IMG/VR virus record: IMGVR_UViG_3300027797_000037
Span: 1 to 54,113 of that record
Length of the DNA stretch: 54,113 nt
Strand: one strand, 5' to 3'
Source of the DNA: a virus
Under the pieces are notes generated by a model. That model was given only the letters and a program-made list of their open reading frames with translations, did not search any database and was not told the origin of the DNA. A program made the translations under genes and the position numbers. Below are positions 38,647 through 51,740 of this stretch, piece after piece. Position 1 is the stretch's first letter. Every line of letters starts with the position of its first letter.

Positions 38647-39210
38647 TTAACCTATCTTTTCTAAGTTATTGATTACTGACGCTTTGTACAGGGGGGCAAT
38701 ATCCTTAGTTAACAAGTCTTTAAAGATATCTCGTGCCTCATCTTGCCGCCCTACCCACCAGCCGCTTACAGCCTTTTCAAATAGAAGGACGTATTCACCC
38801 AAATAACCAATATCTACAGGAAGAGGGTTAATACGGCTCTTGGAAAAGAACAGTCCAACTTCAGCCGCAGCATAAGATTCTTGCCATTTCTTCGAGCCTT
38901 CGTAATACCTAGACAAGAAGAACCAGCCTTCTGGTCGATTAGGCATGTAAGCAATTGCTTTTAAAATCAAATTCAATACGGTGGCTTCACGATTTTTTTG
39001 ACTTGAAAAACAAGTAGATGACTTTAGAAGAGATGAGTACACGTAGTCAGGATGAGTGGTGTATCCGTACTCCGCTGCTCTAAGGTAGAACGAGACTGCC
39101 GATGCGGTTTGCCCCTCTGCTTCATATGCTTTAGCAATTTCCAAACTTAGTACGGGATTAAAAGGATCTTTAGAGATATCCACGATCAAGGTATTGATTG
39201 TCTCAAACAT
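38647..39210 (-). CDS. TPR-like repeat protein
   Basis: The ATG at 39210 overlaps the stop of the beta-propeller gene; an in-frame ATG at 39240 is an alternative. The 187 residues contain helical pairs typical of tetratricopeptide repeats: FNPVLSLEIAKAYEAEGQTASAVSFYLRAAEYG and RPEGWFFLSRYYEGSKKWQESYAAAEVGLFF. TPR proteins scaffold complexes, and in phage glycan loci they often accompany glycosyltransferases. Here it follows the epimerase and glycosidase-like genes. Confidence 0.75.
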   Translation of the reverse strand: MFETINTLIVDISKDPFNPVLSLEIAKAYEAEGQTASAVSFYLRAAEYGYTTHPDYVYSSLLKSSTCFSSQKNREATVLNLILKAIAYMPNRPEGWFFLSRYYEGSKKWQESYAAAEVGLFFSKSRINPLPVDIGYLGEYVLLFEKAVSGWWVGRQDEARDIFKDLLTKDIAPLYKASVINNLEKIG

Positions 39211-40207
39211 TAGTGCCCATCGCTTCCTGGATAAGTTCATCTACAATTTCTTTTGGAACCTCTAATGCAAAGGCTGCATTGTCTTGGAACCCAAACCCAA
39301 GAATTAAGTTGTCATTTACAACTGCCGCTCCAGCACAAAATTCAATCTGTCCATCTAGGAAAGACCAGTTAGTCGGTGAGATTCCAACTAACTTAAAGTT
39401 GTCATCCCATACACATAGTCGATGACGATAAGTTCCGTCCTTTTGTCCTAGATAGTTCTTGAAGAGAACAACTTCATGAGTGATTGCAATGTAGTGTAAT
39501 CCCCATCGTATTACCTGTGATCCACCACGTTGGTCTTCATCGGCTTTCTCTCCCTGTATGACAGAAAGTTGAAGGCTGTTACCATTTACAGGATCTGCTT
39601 TTACAAGTTCTGTGGGAGCGGTCCACTTAACATACTGAAATGGTCGGTCTAAAACAGGCATCCAGTTTTTCTCGCAGTAAGAGTCTTTGTTTATTGGAGG
39701 ATCTATACGCACACGAGAAACTTCTTTTGCAGTCCATGCATCTTTGTCAATCTCTAACTGAGACAGTTCCATACGACCAACACCATTTGTTGTGGTATCA
39801 CGACGAACTCCTGTGGCGTAGTACTTGCCATACCACTTAACAAGACGCGCATCTTCTTCTCCTACAAAAGTCCAAATAGGTGTTACATCTAAAGTTGTAG
39901 TGTCTATCAATGTGTGGTTAACAATGTTGAGGTCAGAGTCAAGGCGGCATAAAAAGTTTTGTGTTACTAACCGCTGGTCTTGTTCAGGATGAAGATACGA
40001 CAGGGGTCCCCAGATACTAGGAAAACGTTGATTATTTTCAGCGTGATAAAGGGTGTAGTTAATGTGACGCAGTATGCAGAGGATGTCTCCATCATCATCT
40101 AGAAACAATGAGGGGTTCATCAAGCCTGTCCCATTAGTTATTGAAGAAGGGATTATTAAGGGCTTTAGTTTTCCGCCTCTAGAAGTTACCTTTTGCACCA
40201 AGTTCAT
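39203..40207 (-). CDS. GH130-like beta-propeller protein
   Basis: The 334-residue protein has blade-like repeats. They include NPSLFLDDDGDILCILRHINYTLYH, GEEDARLVKWYGKYYATG, NWMPVLDRPFQYVKW and EFCAGAAVVNDNLILGFG. The EDAR element is close to the EDPR motif of GH130 phosphorylases and related five-bladed propellers (GH43, GH32). It could cleave, phosphorolyse or bind a glycan linked to the cassette. Catalytic activity is unproven. It overlaps the epimerase gene. Confidence 0.7.
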   Translation of the reverse strand: MNLVQKVTSRGGKLKPLIIPSSITNGTGLMNPSLFLDDDGDILCILRHINYTLYHAENNQRFPSIWGPLSYLHPEQDQRLVTQNFLCRLDSDLNIVNHTLIDTTTLDVTPIWTFVGEEDARLVKWYGKYYATGVRRDTTTNGVGRMELSQLEIDKDAWTAKEVSRVRIDPPINKDSYCEKNWMPVLDRPFQYVKWTAPTELVKADPVNGNSLQLSVIQGEKADEDQRGGSQVIRWGLHYIAITHEVVLFKNYLGQKDGTYRHRLCVWDDNFKLVGISPTNWSFLDGQIEFCAGAAVVNDNLILGFGFQDNAAFALEVPKEIVDELIQEAMGTNV

Positions 40208-41018
40208 GTTTTAAACCTTCTACTTCAGATTGGACAATGTTATTAAACGGTTGAATGGGAACCCATCCTATTGTGCTTACTTCTTTTACAGTGGGGTAAA
40301 CGGTAGTGTCTTTTGTGTCTCCATACAGTACCAGAACGTCTACACCGTTAGCAGCGTACTGCTCAAGTATTTGCGGAACAGTATGCTGTGTTCCACTGTA
40401 GACATCTGTAAGGATTGAAGTCCCACCCTTGAGCAGGTATGAAACCGCACAAAGATTTGCCTTAGCAATGTCTTCTACATGCGTGTAGTCACGGGTAGAG
40501 GTAGGGTCATTAACAGTGAAAGTCTTCTTCCCTGTAACGGCTCGGTTGATAACTCCAAAGATGTTTACTGATCTCAAGTCAATAGAGCCATTGGATTGCC
40601 CTCCGATGTTGAAGTATCGAAGGATAACGTTCTTGGGAACTCTTTTAATAATCTGTTCTTCTATCTTCTTGGCTTTAGCGTATGGGTTAGTTGGCTCATA
40701 AACAGATGCTGAAGAAGAAAACACAATGGGCGTTTTAAATGCCCACGATAAGAAAGCCACAACCAAGGTAGAAAGGACATTGTTGTAGTAGTAAGAGACA
40801 GGGTGCTTTAGGGATTCACCGATACTCTTCTTAGCAGACAGGTGAACCACTGCCACAGGACGATACTTAGCGTAGGTCTTTGACATGGCTAAGAGATCCT
40901 TAGTGTCATTCCCAGACACCTGGTCAACAATGACACAGGTAAACCCCTGGCTTTCTAGCAGGGCTACAGTAGATCTCCCAATGTAACCGAGGCCTCCAGT
41001 AACAAGAATATTAGGCAT
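40179..41018 (-). CDS. NAD-dependent sugar epimerase/dehydratase (GalE-like)
   Basis: The 279-residue protein has the NAD-binding GGLGYIG motif (8-14), a FSSSASVYE segment with catalytic Ser near 102, and Y113/K117 in a YAKAK motif. RDYTHVEDIAKANL matches the extended SDR epimerase family. It is about 60 residues shorter than typical GalE. It likely makes a UDP-sugar for the nearby glycosyltransferase, for example interconverting UDP-GlcNAc and UDP-GalNAc; substrate choice is inference. Confidence 0.87.
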   Translation of the reverse strand: MPNILVTGGLGYIGRSTVALLESQGFTCVIVDQVSGNDTKDLLAMSKTYAKYRPVAVVHLSAKKSIGESLKHPVSYYYNNVLSTLVVAFLSWAFKTPIVFSSSASVYEPTNPYAKAKKIEEQIIKRVPKNVILRYFNIGGQSNGSIDLRSVNIFGVINRAVTGKKTFTVNDPTSTRDYTHVEDIAKANLCAVSYLLKGGTSILTDVYSGTQHTVPQILEQYAANGVDVLVLYGDTKDTTVYPTVKEVSTIGWVPIQPFNNIVQSEVEGLKHELGAKGNF

Positions 41019-41071: not shown

Positions 41072-41539
41072 ATGACACGTGACTTATTGGCTATTTTAAA
41101 TACTAAGTCTTGTTCAGGGTGCACAAAGTGCTGTGAAGGTTACCTTTCAACAAATATCAAAGGGCATAATGTGTCTTTAGGTAACCCCTGTCCTTTTGTT
41201 ATTAAAGACGTTGGATGCAATGACTATAAAAACCGTCCACTAGAGCCTTGCGTTACATTTGAATGTGAATGGCGTCGTAACCCATATTTTGATGAGTGGT
41301 TAAGCCCCGCCAATTCACAAGCATTGTTTACTAGACAAGTAGTAGAAGGAATTTTTTACGTACTCTTAACAGAAGCAGGAAAACCTTTAGACACAAAAGT
41401 TTTAACTTGGGGAATTGAATACGCACAAACTCACCAAGTAAATCTTTCTTGGAACATAGATGGTCATCAGTCTTGGGTTGGAACACCTGAGTTTTGTAAA
41501 ACTATGGAGGGTAAGTACAAAAACCAACCTGCTTTATAG
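41072..41539 (+). CDS. YkgJ-like cysteine-cluster protein, only plus-strand gene
   Basis: The 155-residue protein begins with a CSGCTKCCEG cluster (C14, C17, C20, C21), then NPCPF, GCNDYKNRP and PCVTFEC (C40, C49, C60, C65). This order matches YkgJ-type putative iron-sulfur or zinc proteins. It faces all other genes, has its own likely leaderless promoter, and converges with the oxygenase gene 1 bp away. Such an isolated gene inside a modification cassette may be a cargo gene. YkgJ-like clusters often accompany enzymes that modify proteins or glycans. Confidence 0.82.
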   Translation: MTRDLLAILNTKSCSGCTKCCEGYLSTNIKGHNVSLGNPCPFVIKDVGCNDYKNRPLEPCVTFECEWRRNPYFDEWLSPANSQALFTRQVVEGIFYVLLTEAGKPLDTKVLTWGIEYAQTHQVNLSWNIDGHQSWVGTPEFCKTMEGKYKNQPAL

Positions 41540-41540
41540 G

Positions 41541-42146
41541 TTAAATTTTTCCCATAATCTTTGCAATTTGGTGCAATGCCTCTGGTCGAACACCGCTAGG
41601 AAGATCGTTCATCCAACTTACAAGAACAAACTTTTCTCCCTCTGTCACAGGAGTTGCAGAATGTATGTACGCATAGTTTGCTGGAAATATAACAATCGCA
41701 GGTTTTGTTGGTTTTACCAACAAGTCAAAATTCCTAAAATGTGTTCCGCCACCCTCGTACTCATGTGGGTTTAAGTAAACAAGAATAGAGGCTGTTCTGT
41801 AGATGTCCCAGTTAGTATCTACATGGTAATCATACTTCTGAGTTATCCCATAACGAAGCATGTTAAAACCTTCATCTTGTGTTATAGAGATTTCGTTTTT
41901 GCTTGAGTAATGGTTAATTGCAGGTGTGGTGTGTTTTCGAATCTCATCATCCCAAAAAGGAAATACCTCTGGAAAACGTAACCCTCTACTGGTACGAATT
42001 TCTTGCTCAGGGTGCTCTCCGTGACCTACGTCGCTTTTTTTCCACGGTAATTCAGTACTTTGTCGGCACATGTCTACAATGTTTTTGGCTAAAATTTCTG
42101 GCAAATCGTATTGATATACTCCAATACCAAGTTCCGTATGCTCCAT
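41541..42146 (-). CDS. Prolyl-4-hydroxylase-like 2OG-Fe(II) oxygenase
   Basis: The 201-residue protein shows the iron-binding triad H108 and D110 (YHVD) and H162 (YIHSATPV), plus K172 (EGEKFVLVSW) for 2-oxoglutarate. The GGGTHFRNFDLLVKPTKPAIVIFP segment is typical of prolyl 4-hydroxylase-type dioxygenases. It would hydroxylate Pro or another residue in a protein. It lies three genes downstream of a GlcNAc-transferase gene and near fibre genes; see findings. Confidence 0.87.
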   Translation of the reverse strand: MEHTELGIGVYQYDLPEILAKNIVDMCRQSTELPWKKSDVGHGEHPEQEIRTSRGLRFPEVFPFWDDEIRKHTTPAINHYSSKNEISITQDEGFNMLRYGITQKYDYHVDTNWDIYRTASILVYLNPHEYEGGGTHFRNFDLLVKPTKPAIVIFPANYAYIHSATPVTEGEKFVLVSWMNDLPSGVRPEALHQIAKIMGKI

Positions 42147-42863
42147 TTACTGTACCTTTCGTTTAAATAGTTTTCTAGTCCAAAGTTTTTTTTGGTAATA
42201 CCTATCTATGCTTTGTATGTTTTCTTGGGTAATCTGATCTAACTTTGAGTCTATCTTATTGTACCCTATTTCCCAAGCACTTCTAACAAAAGGAATGATT
42301 TGTGCTAAAGGAGTTCCCGCAGCAATCTTTACCTCTCTGGTGTACTCAAAAGGCTTAATTGTAAACAGCACATTTAAAGGTGTGTAGAACTTGTCTGTGT
42401 CAATTATTCCTGGCATAACCTCTGTCTTTAGGTCAGGCCTGTACGGAGGCTGGATCATCATGATGCTTGTATTTTTTGAGGTCTTTACTTTGTAAGGAAG
42501 AACAACTTTTTCTACACCAAACTTCTGCATAGAAACGGCTGCGTCTGGGTACATACCTAGTTGCACTTGAGGATGAGAACTAAATAACCCCTCTCGGTTA
42601 TCGTCTCGTGTTCTTTTAACAAAGAGTTTGTTGTTCTCATCTCTAGTGATTGTTACATCAAAAGGCCAAACAACCATATAGCCAGAAGTCATAATGTCAT
42701 ATAAACCACGACAAGTTTTAGCGGTCTTCATTGTGTCGTTAGTCGTTAACCCTTTAAACCATTCAGGAAGATGTTCTTCTGCTGGAGTTGGTTTATACTC
42801 GTTTATGTGGTGCTCTGGTCCCAGGTCATGGCTGGGAGAGTCTATGTTAATTGTAAATTTCAT
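42147..42863 (-). CDS. Unknown protein, paralogue of the next upstream gene (copy A)
   Basis: The 238-residue protein aligns with the adjacent protein (42860-43582) in several blocks. These are PAEEHLPEWFKGL, CRGLYDIMTSGYMVVWPFDV, MPGIIDTDKFY and an AAGTPLAQIIPFVRSAWE segment. Strand-rich character suggests a beta-sandwich or cupin-like fold. I associate the pattern with phage proteins of the DUF6065 type, with low certainty. It may act as a companion of the oxygenase. Confidence 0.72.
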   Translation of the reverse strand: MKFTINIDSPSHDLGPEHHINEYKPTPAEEHLPEWFKGLTTNDTMKTAKTCRGLYDIMTSGYMVVWPFDVTITRDENNKLFVKRTRDDNREGLFSSHPQVQLGMYPDAAVSMQKFGVEKVVLPYKVKTSKNTSIMMIQPPYRPDLKTEVMPGIIDTDKFYTPLNVLFTIKPFEYTREVKIAAGTPLAQIIPFVRSAWEIGYNKIDSKLDQITQENIQSIDRYYQKKLWTRKLFKRKVQ

Positions 42864-43582
42864 TTAAACACCTTCTTATTCCAAAAAGTTTTCTTGTATC
42901 GATTTTCAAATAAAACAGAGTGAGCCTCTAAGTTTTTTGTTTTTTGTCCTGATTCAAGAGAAGAGTACTCTGCCGTCCACTCAGCCCGCTTAAATGGGAT
43001 GATCTGAGCCACAGGAGTTCCCGCAGGGATAACGCCTTCAAATCCTGCTTGAAGTAAAAAAGGAAACTGTACAGACAATTTAAAGTGATCGGCGTCTACA
43101 ATCCCAGGAAGAATAGAAAAAGGCAAATCATCTCTATGCATTGGCTGTGTAAATAGAACGCTCCAACCATCTGGAACTTTTACAATCCATGGGTTAAACC
43201 ACTTAAGAAACTCTGGCCCATATCCTTTAGGGATATTGAGGGTCGAAGCCTGTTCGTGAGTATGAGATGTGACCATTTTAGTTTGAATTGGCCAAGTAAA
43301 TGAAGGAGCCCCCTGAGCATCACGAGACACAAATACATCACAAGGTAGAGTAATAATGTACCCCGCTGTCATAGCATCAAATACAGGCATGCATTTTTTT
43401 ACAGTTTGATTGGCTCCACTCTCTTGGTAGATTCTTTGATTGTTTACGTGTGTCGGTAGTTTTTTGTACCAATCAGGTATGTGTTTACTGGCGGGTGATG
43501 GTTGTGGAAAATAATCTAAGTCTTTTTCCTCACAGATAAACTGTATGACTTGATTAGTTTCTTCCTTCGTTTTGTTTAACAT
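42860..43582 (-). CDS. Unknown protein, paralogue of the adjacent downstream gene (copy B)
   Basis: The ATG at 43582 is chosen; longer frames would overlap the glycosyltransferase further. The protein of about 240 residues shares the HIPDWYKKL, CMPVFDAMTAGYIITLPCDV, LPGIVDADHF and PAGTPVAQIIPFKRAEW blocks with copy A. The repeat of this gene, between the glycosyltransferase and the oxygenase, suggests both copies have a role in protein modification. No catalytic motif is clear. Confidence 0.72.
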   Translation of the reverse strand: MLNKTKEETNQVIQFICEEKDLDYFPQPSPASKHIPDWYKKLPTHVNNQRIYQESGANQTVKKCMPVFDAMTAGYIITLPCDVFVSRDAQGAPSFTWPIQTKMVTSHTHEQASTLNIPKGYGPEFLKWFNPWIVKVPDGWSVLFTQPMHRDDLPFSILPGIVDADHFKLSVQFPFLLQAGFEGVIPAGTPVAQIIPFKRAEWTAEYSSLESGQKTKNLEAHSVLFENRYKKTFWNKKVFK

Positions 43583-44786
43583 CTTCAAACCAGTCATAAT
43601 CCGCATCGTACATCCAATCAATATAGTCGTTAATTGAATACGTATAAATTTCAGTTGAAAAATTTATAGCCTCAGTAATCTTATTGTGCAGCATTTTGTC
43701 TACAGGTGCAAGTAATTGCCTATTGTCGTAGTCAACACCAGCAAACTGTTCGTAGTCAGTAAATGATCTTGGTGTTTTCTTTAACTTTTTTAACTCCTCA
43801 AAAATCTTTAAACTACCTTTTTCTTTGTTTCTATAACCGTGAGTTGCATACGTTTCAGGAAAGTCGTCAATTGGGTGGTTTCTACTTTGTATAAGAACTT
43901 GTTTATTTGCCTCACTGTAGTAATGCATAACACCCGTTACACGAGGAACATAGAAGTTGTACCCTTTCATATAAGCCAAAATTGAATAGTACTGCTCTTC
44001 TTCAAGGAACCTAATGTCACGATTTGCAGGCACTTCACTAACAAAAGACCCTGCTGTAAAAATTTGTGCAGGAGATACCGCACATGCAAAAGCAATAGTC
44101 TCAAATAAAGTAAAGTGACGATCTCCGTGTCGTGGAAAACCTATCTCTTTAAAAAATTGTGCAGGACCTAAACCTATACGAAAACAAGGGACATTGTTAT
44201 GCCCCCTACGCTGTCTAAAGTAAACTTCTTTAGACATCGGGTTGTAGTAAGGGTAAGCGCCATCAACACTAGGAAAAATATCTGGAGCATAGGCTCGTGG
44301 ATAACCTGTTATAAGAGGCTTTGGCTCTCCTAAAGCAACGAGGTTTTGATAATGGTGAATAAGTAAATCATCCCAATGCATGTCAAAACGCATATGAGCA
44401 TCAATTTGTAAAAAGTAATCTTCGTTGTTAAACATAAGCAGTGCGTCTGCACGCTGATTTCCAAGCCCTACATTTTTTGGTAGCGCTTCTTTAGCAAGAA
44501 TCTTTACGTTTTTGTACTTCTTTTGGATAGCAGTCCAATAATCTACATCTTCTTTTTTGTAAACAAGACCAACGCCGATAAAAACACGCTCAGGATTTTT
44601 AGCGTTTAAATACACGCTATCAATAGTTGCTACAAGTTCTTCGTCTCTATAACAAGGTATAGCAATAAAAATTGTTTTAGAATCACGATCTTCAGACTTT
44701 GTATCAAAAAGTGATTTGTAACGATACTCATTTTCTAGTTCATTTAAGATTACTCTATCAGCATTTTTCATCACATGATAAGCCAT
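43554..44786 (-). CDS. GlcNAc-transferase-like glycosyltransferase (GT60 type)
   Basis: The 410-residue protein has the IFIAIPCYRDEELVATIDSV N-terminus and the EDYFLQIDAHMRFDMHWD segment with a DAH metal-binding motif. These are characteristic of the GlcNAc glycosyltransferase family of Skp1-type (GT60) enzymes. EANK and Arg-rich stretches later agree. In Dictyostelium this family adds GlcNAc to hydroxyproline on Skp1. Here it is followed in the same operon by a prolyl-hydroxylase-like gene. Substrate and donor are inferred. Confidence 0.82.
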   Translation of the reverse strand: MAYHVMKNADRVILNELENEYRYKSLFDTKSEDRDSKTIFIAIPCYRDEELVATIDSVYLNAKNPERVFIGVGLVYKKEDVDYWTAIQKKYKNVKILAKEALPKNVGLGNQRADALLMFNNEDYFLQIDAHMRFDMHWDDLLIHHYQNLVALGEPKPLITGYPRAYAPDIFPSVDGAYPYYNPMSKEVYFRQRRGHNNVPCFRIGLGPAQFFKEIGFPRHGDRHFTLFETIAFACAVSPAQIFTAGSFVSEVPANRDIRFLEEEQYYSILAYMKGYNFYVPRVTGVMHYYSEANKQVLIQSRNHPIDDFPETYATHGYRNKEKGSLKIFEELKKLKKTPRSFTDYEQFAGVDYDNRQLLAPVDKMLHNKITEAINFSTEIYTYSINDYIDWMYDADYDWFEDVKQNEGRN

Positions 44787-44795
44787 TACTATCTC

Positions 44796-45470
44796 CTATA
44801 CGACGAATTCCTTTGCGGTTCCAGAAGCATACCCAGAAACATCTAAATCAACAGCATTTGTTCGTGTAGCCTGTGAGACATACACGATAACTCCGCCACC
44901 TGTGACATACGAACCACCAGTGTAGCCCGTTGCATAAATCGTACCATAACCCGATACCTTGCGAGCACAGACAACTACAACTCCACCACCATAGTTAGTG
45001 TTATTACCAGCACCGCCACGTAAAAAGAGAGGAGTTGTTTGAGAGGCAGAAAGGATGTATCCAGCAACTGCATGACGTGCTAATGAGAAGTACTCTGCAG
45101 GAGAGGGTGCAGTCGCTGTGTATGAAGCGCTGGCTCCTCCCAGACTTGTGGTAACGGAAGCAAGTCCTCCGCTAGAGACTGTTCCTACTGCAGATGATCC
45201 ATTCTTTAACCCAATACTTGTGGTTGCTTTGTTACCAACAGCAGTAGAAAAAGATAAAGAGTTACGAACAAACACACGGTATCCCGCAGTATTGAGATGG
45301 ATTCCATCTGCAATAGTTAAATTGCTATAATACATGTCACGAGTGAGTGTGGTGTTTGTGCTAATAGTTACATTGCCATCTTTTCCAGAGCCATAGATTT
45401 CATCTGGAACAGCAATAAAACTTGAGGTTGAGGTAGAAGACCCTACACTTGACACGCCGTAGTTACCCAT
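44796..45470 (-). CDS. Gly/Ser-rich virion protein, short relative of the next gene
   Basis: The 224-residue protein contains a GNVTISTNTTLTRDMYYSNL segment and an AGYRVFVRNSLSF strand, shared with residues 26-66 of the gene at 45485-47077. The C-terminal half is Gly-rich. Both likely descend from one duplicated beta-structured fibre base. It is the last virion gene before the glycosyltransferase. Confidence 0.72.
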   Translation of the reverse strand: MGNYGVSSVGSSTSTSSFIAVPDEIYGSGKDGNVTISTNTTLTRDMYYSNLTIADGIHLNTAGYRVFVRNSLSFSTAVGNKATTSIGLKNGSSAVGTVSSGGLASVTTSLGGASASYTATAPSPAEYFSLARHAVAGYILSASQTTPLFLRGGAGNNTNYGGGVVVVCARKVSGYGTIYATGYTGGSYVTGGGVIVYVSQATRTNAVDLDVSGYASGTAKEFVV

Positions 45471-45484
45471 AAGATCCTCGTTTC

Positions 45485-47077
45485 TTAGATTACTTCATGA
45501 TTAATAAGGACAATTGTACCCGCAGAAGAAGTTCCTGACTGCCCTGTAGCACCAGGTGCTGCACTAGTTGTTAACCCAACTGGGAGTGTGCTGGTGGACA
45601 TTACAAACAAAACTCCACCTCCACCAACAAATCCAGAACTTCCTGTTGCACCTGTTCCTCCAGATGTGGCTGTTCCTCCCGCACCTCCCGCACCTCCTGG
45701 ATAGGTAAGGGGCGTGTTATACGTAGATGCATTCCCTGCGACCGTGTTATAGGTAAGTCCAGTACCTGCAGTAAAAGTGTATGTAGGTACGTTGTTTGCA
45801 TTTACAGTTGATCCAGTACCTGCGGTGTAAGTATACGTTGGTGAGTTGTTAGGGTTTGTTGTTGCGCCACTACCTGGGCTATAACTGTATGAAGGTGGAT
45901 TATTTGCATTTGTTGTTGCGCCACTACCTGGGCTATATGTATACGAAGCAGCATTAGTGTTTCCTGGACTAAAACTATAAGTGGGAGCATTCCATTTATT
46001 CGCACTAACCTGGTTACCAAAACCTTCTAAAACTGAACCAGGTGGGTTTGTATTACCTGCTGTGTAAGTATAAGAAGGTGGATTATTTGCATTTGTAAAT
46101 GCGCCACTACCTGGGCTATAACTGTATGAAGGTGGATTATTTGCATTTGTTGTTGCGCCAGTACCTGCAGTAAAAGTATACTTAGGTGCGTTGTTAGCAT
46201 TTGAAAATGATCCACTACCTGCGGTATATGTATACTTTGGTGCGTTATACGTTGCTACAGGAGTTGTTGGAGAGTTATACACAGAGGCATTACCACTTAA
46301 GTATAAAGTTGGAGCAGGAGCACCTGCTGTACCAGCAGTTCCTGCATTACCTGGAGCACCTGCAGAACCTGCAGAACCTGCTACACCGTTTACTGCAATG
46401 ACACCATCACCAACAATAGTCTTAGCAAGAACTATAACTACTCCGCCACCTGCCCCACCCAAACCTCCAGCACCGCCTGCTCCTCCAGTACCTGCAGTAC
46501 CTGCAGTACCTGTTGCTCCTTTCCCACCTGCCTCACCAACTGAGTTTGCACTTGGTGGGTAACTTCCTGCAGAGCCTGCAGATCCAGAGTTAGAAGTTCC
46601 TGCATTACCTGTCGCACCTGCTGCTCCAGTTGATCCGCCTGCTCCACCAGAAATAGCAGATACATCACCTGTAGTTGCATCGATGTATAGGGTTGAAATT
46701 AAACTTGTAATGTTGTAGTAAAACTCTTTTCCTGCAGCAATCTGTGTTGCAGTTGTGTCACCACTATTGCCGCCTAAAGAACTAGAGGCGTTATTTCCAA
46801 CAGTTGCTCCTCCACCAATAGTTCCAACAGCAGTTGTATTAGTAAGACGAGAAATTTTAGAGGTGCCATCAACAAAGGTCAAAGTGCTTTTGACAAAAAT
46901 ACGGTAGCCAGCAGGATCAAGATTGACACCTGAGTTAATCGTCAGATTGTTGTAATACATGTCTCTAGTAAGAGTCGTATTAACCGTCAGGGTCACATTT
47001 CCGTCTGAACCATTACCGTATGCAAACAACCCGCCTAAGCGGGTGTTGACCACGATAGGTACGGATGAAAGGGACAT
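45485..47077 (-). CDS. Repetitive extensin-like fibre protein
   Basis: Residues 1-140 of 530 share the TLTRDMYYNNLTI base with the next gene. Residues 143-215 are Gly/Ala-rich. Residues 281-445 hold 18-residue repeats of the type SYSYSPGSGATTNANNPP. Seven are well kept and two are degenerate. These Tyr/Ser/Pro/Asn repeats resemble hydroxyproline-rich wall proteins. A Gly-rich C-terminus follows. The protein probably forms a surface fibre. It is the best candidate substrate for the nearby hydroxylase and glycosyltransferase. Confidence 0.78.
   Translation of the reverse strand: MSLSSVPIVVNTRLGGLFAYGNGSDGNVTLTVNTTLTRDMYYNNLTINSGVNLDPAGYRIFVKSTLTFVDGTSKISRLTNTTAVGTIGGGATVGNNASSSLGGNSGDTTATQIAAGKEFYYNITSLISTLYIDATTGDVSAISGGAGGSTGAAGATGNAGTSNSGSAGSAGSYPPSANSVGEAGGKGATGTAGTAGTGGAGGAGGLGGAGGGVVIVLAKTIVGDGVIAVNGVAGSAGSAGAPGNAGTAGTAGAPAPTLYLSGNASVYNSPTTPVATYNAPKYTYTAGSGSFSNANNAPKYTFTAGTGATTNANNPPSYSYSPGSGAFTNANNPPSYTYTAGNTNPPGSVLEGFGNQVSANKWNAPTYSFSPGNTNAASYTYSPGSGATTNANNPPSYSYSPGSGATTNPNNSPTYTYTAGTGSTVNANNVPTYTFTAGTGLTYNTVAGNASTYNTPLTYPGGAGGAGGTATSGGTGATGSSGFVGGGGVLFVMSTSTLPVGLTTSAAPGATGQSGTSSAGTIVLINHEVI
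45743..46237 (-). repeat. 54-bp tandem repeat array (18-aa units)
   Basis: The DNA repeats with a period of 54 bp. Units alternate TATACATAT-like and GCGCCACTACCTGG-like stretches on the plus strand, and each unit codes for 18 residues. About seven recognisable units and two partial units are present. Near-identical units could change number by slippage or recombination. Confidence 0.85.
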
Positions 47078-47427: not shown

Positions 47428-48678
47428 TTAGAAGACTAGAGCGTAATACCAAGAATCATCAGGAGAAATTGTACCAGTAGTTCCTTGGGTTCCTGTAGCA
47501 CCTTGGGCTCCAGTTGTACCTTGTGTACCTGTCGTTCCTTGAGCACCTGTTGTTCCTTGAGCACCAGTGGTTCCTTGGGCACCAGTATCACCTTGATCAC
47601 CAGTACGAGCAAAAGTGATAATTATGTCTTCTAGGTTTGCAAAAGATCCGTTACCAGATACATAAGAACAGTTGACTGTAAACCATCCCGTATTGTTAGT
47701 AAGAGAAGTTATTGTATAAAGCGCAAATACTGAAGCATCAAACTTTTTAGAAACTCTGAAGTGACCCTTAACGGTAGATGTAGAGTCATCAATAGTGTTT
47801 AAGAAAGATGAGATATCGGTGCTTTCATCGTTAGATGAGTCAATGTACAAAACCGTTGCAGATGATAAAGTTGCATTGTTAAATTGAATCTTTCCAACAC
47901 CTGGGTCTGTTGCAGTTACAGTTGTACTATATGTATAGTCAAATGTAGCGCCACCAAAGTTACCGTTTTGTCCTGTAATTCCCTGGGTACCAGTAGTTCC
48001 TTGAGTACCCGTAGTTCCCTGGGTACCATCGGTACCTTGAATTCCCTGGGTGCCAGTCGTACCTTGGGTTCCTGTAGTACCTTGGGTACCTGTTGTACCC
48101 TGAGCACCGATTGCGCCCTGTAACCCAGTCTCTCCCTGTGTTCCTGTAGCACCTTGGGCTCCAGTTGTACCTGTTGCTCCCTGTGTACCAGTCGTACCCT
48201 GTGTACCAGTCGTGCCCTGTGTACCTGTTGTTCCCTGGGTACCGTCGGTACCCTGTGTACCTGTAGCGCCCTGTGTACCTGTGGTTCCCTGTGTACCAGT
48301 GGTTCCCTGAGAACCTATAGTTCCTTGAACTCCTTGGGTACCTGCGGGTCCTTCTACTCCTTGTAATCCAGTTCCACCGATTGTTCCTTGGGCGCCTGTT
48401 GTTCCCTGGGTACCATCGGTACCTTGAATTCCCTGGGTGCCTGTAGTGCCTTGGGTACCAGTGGTTCCAGTAGTTCCTTGAGTACCCGTAGTTCCCTGTG
48501 TTCCAGTGGTTCCTTGAACTCCTGTGAAGTAGTCAAGTGAATTCCATGCTGTGTTTCCATCACCAATTTTAAATTGATTGTTGGTAGTGTTATAACCAAT
48601 TTCACCCACGCTTAAAGTTGGGTTAGCATTTGTCCACTGTGTCCCAGTACCACGACGCACTTGAATCTTTGTTGCCAT
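47428..48678 (-). CDS. Collagen-like tail fibre protein (416 aa)
   Basis: Residues 1-50 (IQVRRGTGTQWTNANPTLSVGEIGYNTTNNQFKIGDG) are a fibre attachment domain seen in many phages. Residues 53-238 are Gly-X-Y repeats, mainly GTQ and GTT, interrupted once or twice. Residues 239-359 form a beta domain. A second collagen segment fills 360-402. Proline occurs only once in the repeats. The beta domain is shared with the 942-residue fibre. It likely forms a trimeric fibre. Confidence 0.9.
   Translation of the reverse strand: MATKIQVRRGTGTQWTNANPTLSVGEIGYNTTNNQFKIGDGNTAWNSLDYFTGVQGTTGTQGTTGTQGTTGTTGTQGTTGTQGIQGTDGTQGTTGAQGTIGGTGLQGVEGPAGTQGVQGTIGSQGTTGTQGTTGTQGATGTQGTDGTQGTTGTQGTTGTQGTTGTQGATGTTGAQGATGTQGETGLQGAIGAQGTTGTQGTTGTQGTTGTQGIQGTDGTQGTTGTQGTTGTQGITGQNGNFGGATFDYTYSTTVTATDPGVGKIQFNNATLSSATVLYIDSSNDESTDISSFLNTIDDSTSTVKGHFRVSKKFDASVFALYTITSLTNNTGWFTVNCSYVSGNGSFANLEDIIITFARTGDQGDTGAQGTTGAQGTTGAQGTTGTQGTTGAQGATGTQGTTGTISPDDSWYYALVF
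47473..48522 (-). repeat. Collagen-type triplet repeat DNA (two blocks)
   Basis: Nine-base and longer DNA repeats (such as GGTACCCAGGG- and GGTACACAGGG-like units on the coding strand) fill 47473-47601 and 47965-48522. They code for Gly-X-Y triplets. The blocks flank a non-repetitive beta domain. Confidence 0.88.
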
Positions 48679-48911: not shown

Positions 48912-51740
48912 TTACGCTTGGACTACTACTCGGTAAGTTTCTCCTGAAGCAGGAGCAACTGCAAACCCGATAGTCACTGTTGTGTCAGTAATGTATGTAA
49001 CATCTGTTACAACTTCCATTGCGCTAGAGACTTCATAGATTTTGACCTGAATGTCTGTTGTTCCCAAAGCGTGGGTCAACGTCCATTGAGTTTGAGAGTA
49101 TGGAGATGCTGGTGTAATGGTAGATGCGTACTTGCGTACAACAACTGCTGTGTCAATCTTAAGACCATTTGCAGACTTAGAAAGTCCAGAAGCGGTATCA
49201 AGTTTTGCACTAAATGTTGAACCAGTTAAATCAATACCGTCCCCAGCCAGATACGTTCCAGCCCCTGAGAACTGTGAGAATGTAAGTGCTGTAGTGTCAA
49301 GTGTTATTGCATCGTCTGTTGTAAGAACCCAACCAGTGTTTCCATTGGTTGTACCCTCTGATACGAAGGTAAATAGGCCAGCGGTAACTTCTGCGCTTAG
49401 ATTTGCATCTTCTGCGCGAGTAGGCGCACCTGTTGAATTTACGGTATAGATACCGTTTTCTGAGCCAGTTGCCTGATTCTTAATAAGGATTCTGTTGCCA
49501 GTAGCAAGCGTTACTCCATCTACCACATCGCCATTTTCAAACGATGTTGCAAGAGTTCCAGCCACTGCAGTTGCTACACGAACTGATGCTTTAACATCTA
49601 GTCCGCTTGCAGTTGCATCAACATATGCCTTTGTAGCAATAGTTGTGGTATCAACTGTGAGTGCTCCACCACCTGAAAGTGATAGACCAGAACCTACAGA
49701 GAGGATTCCAGCATTCTCACCTTGGATACCTTGGGCGCCTGTTGTTCCCTGGGCGCCAGTTGTACCTTGTGAGCCTGTAGTTCCTTGTGAACCTGTGGTT
49801 CCCTGAGTTCCAGTGGTTCCCTGGGTACCAGTCTCACCTTGAGCACCAATGGTGCCCTGTGCTCCTGTGTAACCCTGTAGACCTTGCTCGCCTTGCAAGC
49901 CTGTCGTACCTTGGGCTCCAATTGTACCTTGGGCTCCTGTCTGTCCTTGAAGTCCTGTCTCGCCCTGAGCACCTGTAGTGCCTTGAGAGCCTGTAGTTCC
50001 CTGGGTGCCAGTCGTACCTTGAGTACCTGTTGTACCCTGGGTGCCTGTTGTACCTTGGGCGCCAGCAGTACCTTGAGCACCAGTCGTACCCTGTACACCT
50101 GTAGCACCGTCAAGGTTGATTGACCATGCAGCGTAAGTTCCTGAACCAACAATGTCGTTAACATTTACAACAAGAGTGTCAGTTCCTGATGTGTAACTGA
50201 CTACAGTTGCAGACATGTGGTTGTTTGCATCGTAAGCAACTACTACGTCTTGTCCTACAGAATAAGAAAGAGCAGCATCAGCAAGTACAAACGAAACGTT
50301 GTTTGCTACCGCAATTGTACGTGAAGTAGTAGAGGTTGTCTTATAACGATCTGAGTGGCCTTGTACACCCTGTGAACCTGTAGTTCCCTGGGAGCCTGTT
50401 GTACCTTGGGCTCCCGTGGTTCCTTGTGTACCAGTCTCACCTTGAGTACCAGTAGTTCCCTGAGATCCAGTAGTTCCCTGTGCACCAGTTTGACCTTGTA
50501 GACCAGTTTCTCCTTGCGTACCTGTGGTTCCCTGGGTACCAGTAGTTCCCTGTGCACCAGTTTGACCTTGTAGACCAGTTTCTCCCTGAGATCCAGTAGT
50601 TCCCTGTGAACCTGTAGTGCCCTGGGCTCCAGTTTGACCTTGTAGACCTTCAGCACCCTGAAGTCCTGTTTCTCCTTGAGTACCTGTAGTACCTTGCGTA
50701 CCAGTTTCACCCTGGGTACCAGTGGTTCCTTGGGCACCAACAGTACCTTGTGTACCAGTCTCTCCCTGTGCACCTGTAGTTCCTTGGGCACCGACATCAC
50801 CAGTACGAGCAAAGGTAAGTAGTGTCTCATCGTTGTCAGCAAAAGATCCGTTACCAGATACATACTCAACGGTTACATCGTGGTAGGAAGCGGCTCCTGG
50901 ACCCACATGTGTTAGCCCAGAGATTGTAAATAGTGCAAATGTTGATGCATCGAACTTCTTAGAAATCTTAACGTGACCCTTGATTGTAGAAGTTGAGTCA
51001 TCGATTGTGCTTAAGAATGGTGTTAAATCAAAGTTTCCATCAAGTGGATTGTCATCAATTACTAAGTGTGTTGCACTTGAAAGTGTTGCGTTGTTAAACT
51101 TTACGTAGTTATCGCCTGGGTCGGCAACAGTGTAACTAGTAGTATCAATGTAGTACTGAACAGTTACGCCACCAAATGAACCTGCAACACCAGTCTCACC
51201 CTGGGTACCAGTAATACCTTGTGTACCTGTTTCACCTTGGGTTCCTGTTGTACCCTGTGCGCCATCAGTACCTTGAGCACCTTCAGTACCTTGAGCACCT
51301 GTAGTGCCCTGTGTACCTGTAGTGCCCTGTGTACCTGTAGTACCTTGCGCTCCTTCAATTCCTTGTGTACCTGTTTCGCCCTGCGCTCCTGTTGTTCCCT
51401 GAGCACCGTTAGAGCCGTTTGTTCCTTGTGTACCTGTAGTGCCTTGGGCACCTTCAGTTCCTTGGGTTCCTGTAGTGCCCTGTGTACCAGTAGTGCCTTG
51501 GGTACCAGTAGTGCCTTGGGTACCAGTGGTTCCTTGCGCTCCTGTAGTGCCTTGGGTACCTTGGCTTGCGTTGATCCAAGCAGTACCGTTCCAGGTCTTT
51601 ACTACCTTGTCGTTAGTGTCATAGTAAATCTGACCTTCGACTGGTGATGCTGGTGCCGATACTGATGCTAGGTTTTGAATACGAGCATTCTGTAGTTCAA
51701 GTTTTCCTAGATCAATCGGTGTTAAAAATTTACGGGCCAC
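48912..51740 (-). CDS. Long collagen-like tail fibre protein (942 aa)
   Basis: The GTG start at 51740 follows AAGGAG. Residues 1-60 are an attachment domain. Collagen-type segments fill 61-187, 314-461 and 545-676, about 135 triplets. They are separated by two beta domains (188-313 and 462-544). The C-terminal 265 residues form a fibre head, with TTIATKAYVDATASGLDVKASVR and TGSENGIYTVNSTGAPTRAEDA motifs known from phage receptor-binding fibres. The final 60 residues resemble the end of the 184-residue protein. It is likely the main host-recognition fibre. Confidence 0.92.
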   Translation of the reverse strand: MARKFLTPIDLGKLELQNARIQNLASVSAPASPVEGQIYYDTNDKVVKTWNGTAWINASQGTQGTTGAQGTTGTQGTTGTQGTTGTQGTTGTQGTEGAQGTTGTQGTNGSNGAQGTTGAQGETGTQGIEGAQGTTGTQGTTGTQGTTGAQGTEGAQGTDGAQGTTGTQGETGTQGITGTQGETGVAGSFGGVTVQYYIDTTSYTVADPGDNYVKFNNATLSSATHLVIDDNPLDGNFDLTPFLSTIDDSTSTIKGHVKISKKFDASTFALFTISGLTHVGPGAASYHDVTVEYVSGNGSFADNDETLLTFARTGDVGAQGTTGAQGETGTQGTVGAQGTTGTQGETGTQGTTGTQGETGLQGAEGLQGQTGAQGTTGSQGTTGSQGETGLQGQTGAQGTTGTQGTTGTQGETGLQGQTGAQGTTGSQGTTGTQGETGTQGTTGAQGTTGSQGTTGSQGVQGHSDRYKTTSTTSRTIAVANNVSFVLADAALSYSVGQDVVVAYDANNHMSATVVSYTSGTDTLVVNVNDIVGSGTYAAWSINLDGATGVQGTTGAQGTAGAQGTTGTQGTTGTQGTTGTQGTTGSQGTTGAQGETGLQGQTGAQGTIGAQGTTGLQGEQGLQGYTGAQGTIGAQGETGTQGTTGTQGTTGSQGTTGSQGTTGAQGTTGAQGIQGENAGILSVGSGLSLSGGGALTVDTTTIATKAYVDATASGLDVKASVRVATAVAGTLATSFENGDVVDGVTLATGNRILIKNQATGSENGIYTVNSTGAPTRAEDANLSAEVTAGLFTFVSEGTTNGNTGWVLTTDDAITLDTTALTFSQFSGAGTYLAGDGIDLTGSTFSAKLDTASGLSKSANGLKIDTAVVVRKYASTITPASPYSQTQWTLTHALGTTDIQVKIYEVSSAMEVVTDVTYITDTTVTIGFAVAPASGETYRVVVQA
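49713..51560 (-). repeat. Collagen-type triplet repeat DNA (three blocks)
   Basis: Three blocks of Gly-X-Y coding DNA lie at 49713-50108, 50358-50801 and 51180-51560. The units are near-identical at the DNA level and also resemble those of the neighbouring collagen-like genes, giving a chance for gene-to-gene recombination. Confidence 0.88.

Follow-up and report, generated by a model that had tools for sequence, protein, structure and literature searches.

A putative prolyl hydroxylase, a GT60-type transferase and a Pro/Tyr repeat protein encoded together in a freshwater phage

Results

A minus-strand cassette beside the tail-fibre genes

We analysed the full 54,113-base virus record IMGVR_UViG_3300027797_000037 (hereafter the window), the DNA of a freshwater virus of bacteria, and describe a cassette at 41541-47077 encoding a prolyl-4-hydroxylase (P4H)-like oxygenase, a GT60-type glycosyltransferase and a protein with proline/tyrosine repeats. 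Because the window also holds genes for a tail sheath, tape-measure/peptidase, baseplate, DNA polymerase, helicase and primase, we identified the virus as a contractile-tailed phage. The three genes that an initial annotation had placed on one strand were all open on the minus strand at the coordinates listed below. That annotation had left unmentioned two DUF6065-like genes (phrog_7084) and a repeat-less paralog of the repeat protein (44796-45470). In transcriptional order, the minus strand reads from the collagen-like fibre genes, which start about 0.35 kb upstream of the repeat gene, through a small protein to the Pro/Tyr repeat protein, its repeat-less paralog, the PF11397 transferase, the two DUF6065-like paralogs and the PF13640 oxygenase:

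47428-48678 and 48912-51740, minus strand: collagen-like fibre genes with GTQGTTG repeats
47412-47077, minus strand: small protein between the collagen-like fibre genes and the repeat protein
45485..47077, minus strand: Pro/Tyr repeat protein, 530 amino acids (aa); an open reading frame (ORF) with homologues in related loci L004 and L005
45764..46246, minus strand: repeat insert, residues 278-438 (coordinates calculated from residue numbers); proposed site of modification
44796..45470, minus strand: 224-aa paralog that lacks the repeats and aligns to the N-terminal region of the repeat protein
43554..44786, minus strand: GT60-type (PF11397) peptide glycosyltransferase, 410 aa; PF11397 E 2.6e-28
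42860..43621, minus strand: DUF6065-like paralog A, 253 aa; phrog_7084 E 1.8e-60; TTG start as listed, the true start being uncertain
42147..42863, minus strand: DUF6065-like paralog B, 238 aa; phrog_7084 E 3.2e-34; aligned with paralog A
41541..42146, minus strand: prolyl-4-hydroxylase-like 2-oxoglutarate (2OG)-Fe(II) oxygenase, 201 aa; PF13640 E 4.4e-12

The two enzymes

The initial annotation had recognized a 2OG-Fe(II) oxygenase by residues H108, D110, H162 and K172. Our data bear this out: the iron triad (H108, D110, H162) and the 2OG-binding K172 were invariant in an alignment of four phages, and the protein scored 47.3 bits against PF13640 (cut-off 27). Searched singly against the PDB with phmmer, it matched 5iax (procollagen-proline dioxygenase) at E 4e-08, and the three best matches were all of P4H type. 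When a profile of 20 phage relatives was compared with PDB sequences, eight of the nine best were named prolyl 4-hydroxylase or procollagen-proline dioxygenase, the ninth (3gze) being a 'Predicted protein'. E values were 3.6e-28 to 3.8e-28 for 5iax and two more entries of that kind, which we take to be Bacillus P4H, 3.8e-22 for 5c5t, presumably the viral enzyme of PBCV-1, and 1.7e-20 for 2jig and 3gze, presumably the Chlamydomonas enzyme, with a Ser-Pro peptide bound in 3gze. By family, catalytic residues and nearest solved structures, the product of 41541-42146 is a predicted prolyl-4-hydroxylase-like oxygenase. By eye, the P4H proteins of five other loci (L029, L030, L038, L040, L041) look like tandem double oxygenase domains.

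The transferase, annotated at the outset from its IDAH motif, scored 100 bits against PF11397 (cut-off 21). The I-D-A-H motif was kept, and D129-x-H131 did not vary across a 20-member alignment; of 26 aligned members, the window's included, 23 matched PF11397 at E<=0.01. We take PF11397 to be CAZy family GT60 and to be tied to the Skp1 enzyme. In Foldseek, the best PDB matches of an AlphaFold2 (AF2) model were polypeptide GalNAc-transferases (best E 5.4e-8; TMq 0.33-0.48 among the 50 matches listed), in keeping with a peptide acceptor. We therefore classed the enzyme as GT60-type, with a predicted GT-A-like fold and a D-x-D/H metal motif. The GT60 proteins of L026-L037 and L041 have a C-terminal extension, which in L030 weakly matches the DXD sugar-transferase family PF04488.

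The window GT60, the L030 GT60, the L071 'GT' and the repeat protein gave no match against 50,697 phage records. A control query, the GT25 of L005, recovered nothing beyond its own contig. A scan of viral contigs with the L216 GT60 returned its source contig and one identical copy, L234. Shorter 'GT' calls of 270-295 aa beside DUF6065-like and P4H-like genes (L050, L051, L059, L067, L071 and others) had entered through an iterated profile and were not counted as GT60; those aligned were without the D-x-H motif, and L071 and L050, scanned alone, fell below the Pfam cut-off or had no match.

The repeat protein

The repeat protein consists of a conserved N-terminal domain, a Gly-rich stretch, the repeat insert and a Gly-rich C-terminal end. 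Tandem Repeats Finder (TRF) detected 54-bp arrays at 45813-45948 and 46054-46235, and the insert comprises nine units with the core N-x-P-x-Y-x-[YF]-x-x-G (e.g., NAPKYTYTAG, NPPSYSYSPG). Proline occupied the core position in eight of the nine units, and in 10/14 units of L004, 16/20 of L005 and 5/8 of L003. Codons for N, P, Y and G changed mostly at third positions in the window repeat, indicating that the repeat is held at the protein level. The number of units varied among phages, and the paralog was without the insert.

The protein was 70-72% identical to its homologues in L004 and L005, and homologues of the repeat-less paralog occurred in L003, L004, L005 and L006. The N-terminal domain of the repeat protein was present in four records (the window, L002, L004 and L005), and a search of 21 tail-sheath relatives did not find it; because the four carriers had been chosen by GT60, the presence of GT60 in all of them is no evidence of a link. 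Pfam gave no match for the repeat protein, and PHROGs gave only phrog_13336, of unknown function. The repeats first reported as NNPPSYSYSPG are real; the word 'fibre' is backed by position near the collagen-like tail-fibre genes and not by family. From its place in this region, the repeat protein would lie in the virion, probably exposed on the surface.

The description 'extensin-like' likewise stood in part. Y-x-Y was present in six of the nine units and Y-x-F in three, Ser-Pro(3-5) was absent from the window protein, and the longest run of prolines was two (by eye); we use extensin as an analogy. The insert showed no Gly-X-Y pattern, so that the proposed substrate region is not collagen-like.

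Co-occurrence of GT60, P4H and proline repeats

The gene order repeat protein, paralog, GT60, DUF, DUF, P4H was kept in L002-L006, with GT identities of 54-100%. Both enzymes of L002 were identical to the window's, and L003 and L006 were short contigs that ended inside the repeat gene. A broader search yielded 40 loci, to which L079, L084 and L188 were added, for a total of 43 GT60 loci in nine clusters at 40% identity (the window's included). Not counted were L042, L043, L045 and L127, which were second fetches of L002, L005, L004 and L005, and L208-L216 and later loci. We scored a P-repeat ORF wherever an ORF of at least 100 aa held one P-containing tripeptide in at least six copies.

P-repeat ORFs were found in the fetched flanks of 35 of the 43 GT60 loci and in six of the nine clusters (two of five members in the window's cluster). 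P4H was encoded in 22 of the 43 loci, representing four clusters, all of which also had P-repeats. The kinds of repeat near GT60 differed widely: PTPSP, TPAP, TPT, TLPPVTISATT, polyproline and NAPTY. Among the clusters negative for P-repeats, L024 and L079/L084 were contigs or pieces of less than 6 kb; L025, with 17 kb seen, was a true negative over that length. L044 and L046 carry a window-type P4H (61%) at a contig edge and are therefore uninformative on GT60. A search of phage records with the first 200 aa of the L029 P-repeat ORF matched one podovirus record over 49 residues, where the annotation names no such enzyme. Absence of co-occurrence in related genomes had been set beforehand as a refuting test; instead, the enzymes and Pro repeats occurred together in close relatives, and P4H and GT60 occurred with other Pro repeats in distant phages.

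An initial control of 80 tail-sheath loci, with only L188 positive for P-repeats (Fisher p 5.3e-6), was judged too kind, because a 10-kb flank may miss fibre genes. Only one of the 21 tail-sheath relatives searched had PF11397 (G017, the record of L188). The second control used 15 of the 20 GT60-less records, whole or in part (777,105 bases; ORFs at fetch borders may be missed), and gave four P-repeat ORFs in three of the 15. This background corresponds to about a 9.8% chance per 20 kb, and the binomial test yielded p 5.7e-5 for six of nine clusters. One control record, G004, is identical to the window in its sheath and ends before the position of the cassette, and thus probably represents a fragment of the very virus in the window; with G004 and the window's cluster removed, p was 5.2e-4 for five of eight clusters. 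The gene-rank distance from GT60 to the P-repeat ORF summed to 30 over 15 loci, against 63.6 expected, and none of 2000 permutations was as small, a test that overstates independence because some of the 15 loci share a cluster.

PF13640 occurred in four of the 21 sheath relatives (G012, G017, G018, G019). G017 had GT60 and a Pro-run ORF, and the matching records G018 and G019 had a (TPPV)n ORF; that of G018, one of the four control P-repeat ORFs, adjoins a P4H. Two more oxygenase-like proteins were seen by eye beside them (L218 7880-9137, from G018), with no Pfam match. In sheath-relative records without PF11397 we also noted long ORFs of PTP/PAP repeats whose starts look, by eye, like signal peptides (L311 10448, L318 15626, L288 7433).

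A set replaced as a whole

Locus L188/L216 holds together a 53-proline ORF, a P4H, a GT60 and a DUF6065-like gene. Its tail sheath was 68% identical to the window's, whereas its P4H was only 18% and its GT60 only 26% identical; with so close a sheath and so divergent a set, we concluded that enzymes and repeat had changed together. Judged by eye, this set and the window's differ in where they lie with respect to the fibre genes. The 53 consecutive prolines (L216 12337-12969) use mixed codons (CCT 35, CCA 15, CCG 3), and the run was the same in L216 and L234. Such a run should stall ribosomes unless helped. The best 60-aa stretch of this 211-aa ORF had one Thr and no Ser, and the rest was rich in both. 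Because the run offers hardly any Ser or Thr, hydroxyproline (Hyp) would be the natural acceptor there.

HPAT-family proteins and bacterial fusions

In L038 and L040 the order was P-repeat ORF, P4H, GDSL protein, HPAT-family protein, GT60. The HPAT proteins matched PF23452 (hydroxyproline O-arabinosyltransferase) with bit scores of 46.9 and 39.4, where the cut-off is 23.9. When viral contigs were scanned for HPAT, the only addition was the contig of L039, a near copy of L038.

GT60 was rare, occurring in 19 of 386 genomes in one search and in 3 of 170 in another. In one genome of the cyanobacterial phylum, GT60, AhpC/TSA and P4H lay in one 752-aa frame (L280 6912-9167), and in a second such genome P4H adjoined GT60. 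GT60 and HPAT shared one frame in two contigs of Planctomycetaceae metagenome-assembled genomes (L226 7025-8809; L227), which are 9.8 and 6.0 kb long and may be misbinned; L226 also carried a full DUF6065 (3.8e-83), a JmjC/cupin oxygenase, FkbM and a (TP)n ORF. The HPAT between P4H and GT60, together with the GT60-P4H and GT60-HPAT fusions, favours Hyp as the acceptor.

Host and neighbouring genes

By tail sheath, the Streptomyces phage BRock was the first-listed isolate (35.8%), and Synechococcus phages led by record count among isolate matches, at lower coverage. A WhiB gene is present in relative L005. From BRock's rank and this gene, we proposed that the host is perhaps an actinobacterium.

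Paralog A matched PF19541 (DUF6065) at E 4.3e-4, under the cut-off; its AF2 model (pLDDT 91.5) gave dUTPases as best but weak Foldseek matches (E 4.6e-4). In many phages that have no GT60, phrog_7084 genes stand directly before a P4H-like one, and haloarchaeal viruses also carry a DUF6065-like gene. Two further genes lie beyond the oxygenase:

40179..41018, minus strand: NAD-dependent nucleotide-sugar epimerase; PF01370 E 3.9e-25
41072..41539, plus strand: CxxCxxxCC cluster protein; phrog_9155 E 1.3e-22

A gene similar to the epimerase was recognized by eye among the ORFs of L003, L004 and L005, and the enzyme could possibly supply UDP-sugar. The CxxCxxxCC protein had no Pfam family match. It is encoded on the opposite strand beside the Fe(II) oxygenase, with a similar gene near the cassette in L003, L004 and L005 (by eye), and we would guess at a metal- or iron-related role. 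The counterparts of window gene 38647-39240 (L003 9061-10326, by Pfam; L004 9291-10559, by eye) have an added FkbM methyltransferase domain that is not found in the window gene.

Discussion

How the repeat may be modified

We hold with moderate confidence, judging from gene content and order, that the P4H hydroxylates repeat prolines and that the GT60 enzyme then glycosylates Hyp on the insert of the fibre-region protein. The two-step route from P4H to GT60 is likely, although not proven. In the infected cell, before assembly, the oxygenase would hydroxylate the conserved prolines of the N-x-P-x-Y-x-[YF] repeats; the transferase would add a sugar, probably GlcNAc, to hydroxyproline and possibly to neighbouring Thr/Ser as well. 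The repeat, as an insert in a tail-fibre-region protein, would be exposed on the surface, and we might guess that the effect is a stiffer, protease-resistant or receptor-tuned fibre. The initial proposal that the phage hydroxylates and glycosylates its own repeat fibre thus draws strength from gene linkage, and its Hyp acceptor from HPAT and the fusions; GT60 records without P4H and a Thr-active GT60 weaken it on the acceptor.

Several observations weigh against this reading. Its support is genomic linkage. In the repeat units Pro varies more than Asn, Tyr and Gly do, and in L006 Pro holds the core position in one of four units, lying one residue earlier in the other three. The window repeat and those of L002, L003 and L006 fail the P-tripeptide rule, though repeats are visible. 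The AF2 model of the transferase is of moderate quality (pLDDT 66.6), and HPAT, found in two of 50 records searched, is absent from the window record. In five of the nine GT60 clusters the locus is without a P4H, and PF13640 was absent from 15 of 27 GT60 phage records searched, including contigs of 150 and 164 kb; with so many such records, GT60 does not always need hydroxyproline. Conversely, DUF6065 and P4H without GT60 are common in other phages, with a P-repeat ORF in only three of 28 such loci, and the sheath relative L217 (G012) has a P4H and neither GT60 nor a P-repeat ORF. P-repeat ORFs also turned up in the control records without PF11397. Among 17 GT60 regions of the cyanobacterial phylum (GT60 ORF called in 16), P4H was fused or adjoining in two and a P-repeat ORF present in four.

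The chief rival, which we consider unlikely but well worth keeping in view, is a mucin-like route in which GT60 puts GlcNAc directly on Thr/Ser of the repeat and P4H works independently, on this protein or a different one. Ser and Thr together make up 24-33% of the repeat regions; P4H-negative GT60 clusters have Thr-rich ORFs, (TPT)n and (TLPPVTISATT)n, as their partners, and the five clusters without P4H point to a Thr/Ser route in those phages. A passage of PMC9472816 describes a GT60 enzyme, TcOGNT1 of T. cruzi, that makes GlcNAc-alpha-O-Thr on mucin-like molecules. Against this, L038/L040 have an HPAT adjoining GT60, GT60 is fused to P4H and to HPAT in bacteria, and L188/L216 pairs P4H and GT60 with a pure Pro run of 53 residues, though the rest of that ORF has Thr/Ser.

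It is less probable still that the enzymes act mainly elsewhere, on a host protein or on the neighbouring collagen-like GTQGTTG fibres, with the Pro/Tyr repeat protein a mere neighbour. P4H-like genes are widespread in phages, 25 of the 28 DUF+P4H loci without GT60 have no Pro repeat nearby, and the collagen-like genes do lie close to the repeat gene; yet the collagen-like repeats of the window hold very little proline (by eye), the Pro-repeat proteins of other phages are wholly different and still lie near GT60, and enzymes and repeat were replaced jointly in L188/L216. That the genes are unlinked hitch-hikers gathered by chance in a variable tail-fibre region is very improbable given the enrichment over background, the gene-rank closeness and that same coupled replacement, even with PTP/PAP proteins with signal-peptide-like starts in three of the 15 GT60-less control records and a P-repeat ORF in only four of 17 bacterial GT60 regions.

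Relation to known systems

Hydroxyproline-linked glycosylation is regarded as a eukaryotic trait. In Dictyostelium, Skp1 is hydroxylated by PhyA and GlcNAcylated by Gnt1 (GT60). The phage cassette has the same enzyme pair, a prolyl 4-hydroxylase and a PF11397/GT60 transferase, and differs in its proposed substrate, a repeat-bearing protein and not Skp1. Plant extensins and other Hyp-rich glycoproteins are made by P4H and Hyp O-arabinosyltransferases, with Y-x-Y as a cross-link motif. Pro/Tyr repeats with Y-x-Y, a P4H and, in two related phage cassettes, an HPAT-family homologue are shared with them; the window differs in having no Ser-Pro(3-5), no HPAT in the record and a bacterial virus as its source.

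Chlorovirus PBCV-1 shares with the window a virus-encoded P4H and differs as a virus of a eukaryotic alga; we know of no GT60 partner for its enzyme. The title of Eriksson 1999, as given in the reference list of PMC9301287, reports evidence for 4-hydroxyproline in viral proteins. Mimivirus collagen is described in a passage of PMC8968730 as hydroxylated and glycosylated; the idea of a virus modifying its own repeat protein is shared, whereas Mimivirus is a eukaryotic virus with Gly-X-Y collagen repeats. Mycobacteriophage virions are glycosylated at capsid and tail tube C-termini (Freeman 2023, as cited in PMC12619734), a likeness in that sugars sit on phage structural proteins; the citing passage mentions no prolyl hydroxylase. 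The T. cruzi mucin alpha-GlcNAc-transferases (PMC9472816) share the GT60 family and act on abundant mucin-like surface proteins, but their acceptor is Thr, and the passage concerned mentions no hydroxylase. According to passages of PMC12774648, prolyl-hydroxylase-like genes are frequent in marine phages, where 2OG oxygenases that resemble EGLN3 occur widely. Among the papers that searches of the open-access literature listed, none described a phage P4H-GT60 or HPAT cassette, and HPAT with phage gave no match at all.

The cassette loci give a phage prolyl-hydroxylase-like enzyme a concrete, testable candidate substrate, the neighbouring proline-repeat protein, plus a partner glycosyltransferase. 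More tentatively, and with somewhat less than even confidence, we suggest that Hyp O-glycosylation is a recurrent prokaryotic and phage pathway, in which distant phages carry interchangeable modules of proline repeat, P4H and GT60, with or without HPAT, that build plant-cell-wall-like glycosylated fibres; eukaryotic Skp1- and extensin-type enzymes may share ancestry with this pool. If the proposed modification is true, such enzymes would offer a compact bacterial source for making Hyp-glycoproteins. Hyp-linked glycosylation would then exist in bacteriophages, with a bearing on fibre stability, host range and recognition, and the relatives suggest that such viruses may dress their own proline-rich proteins much as plants do those of the cell wall.

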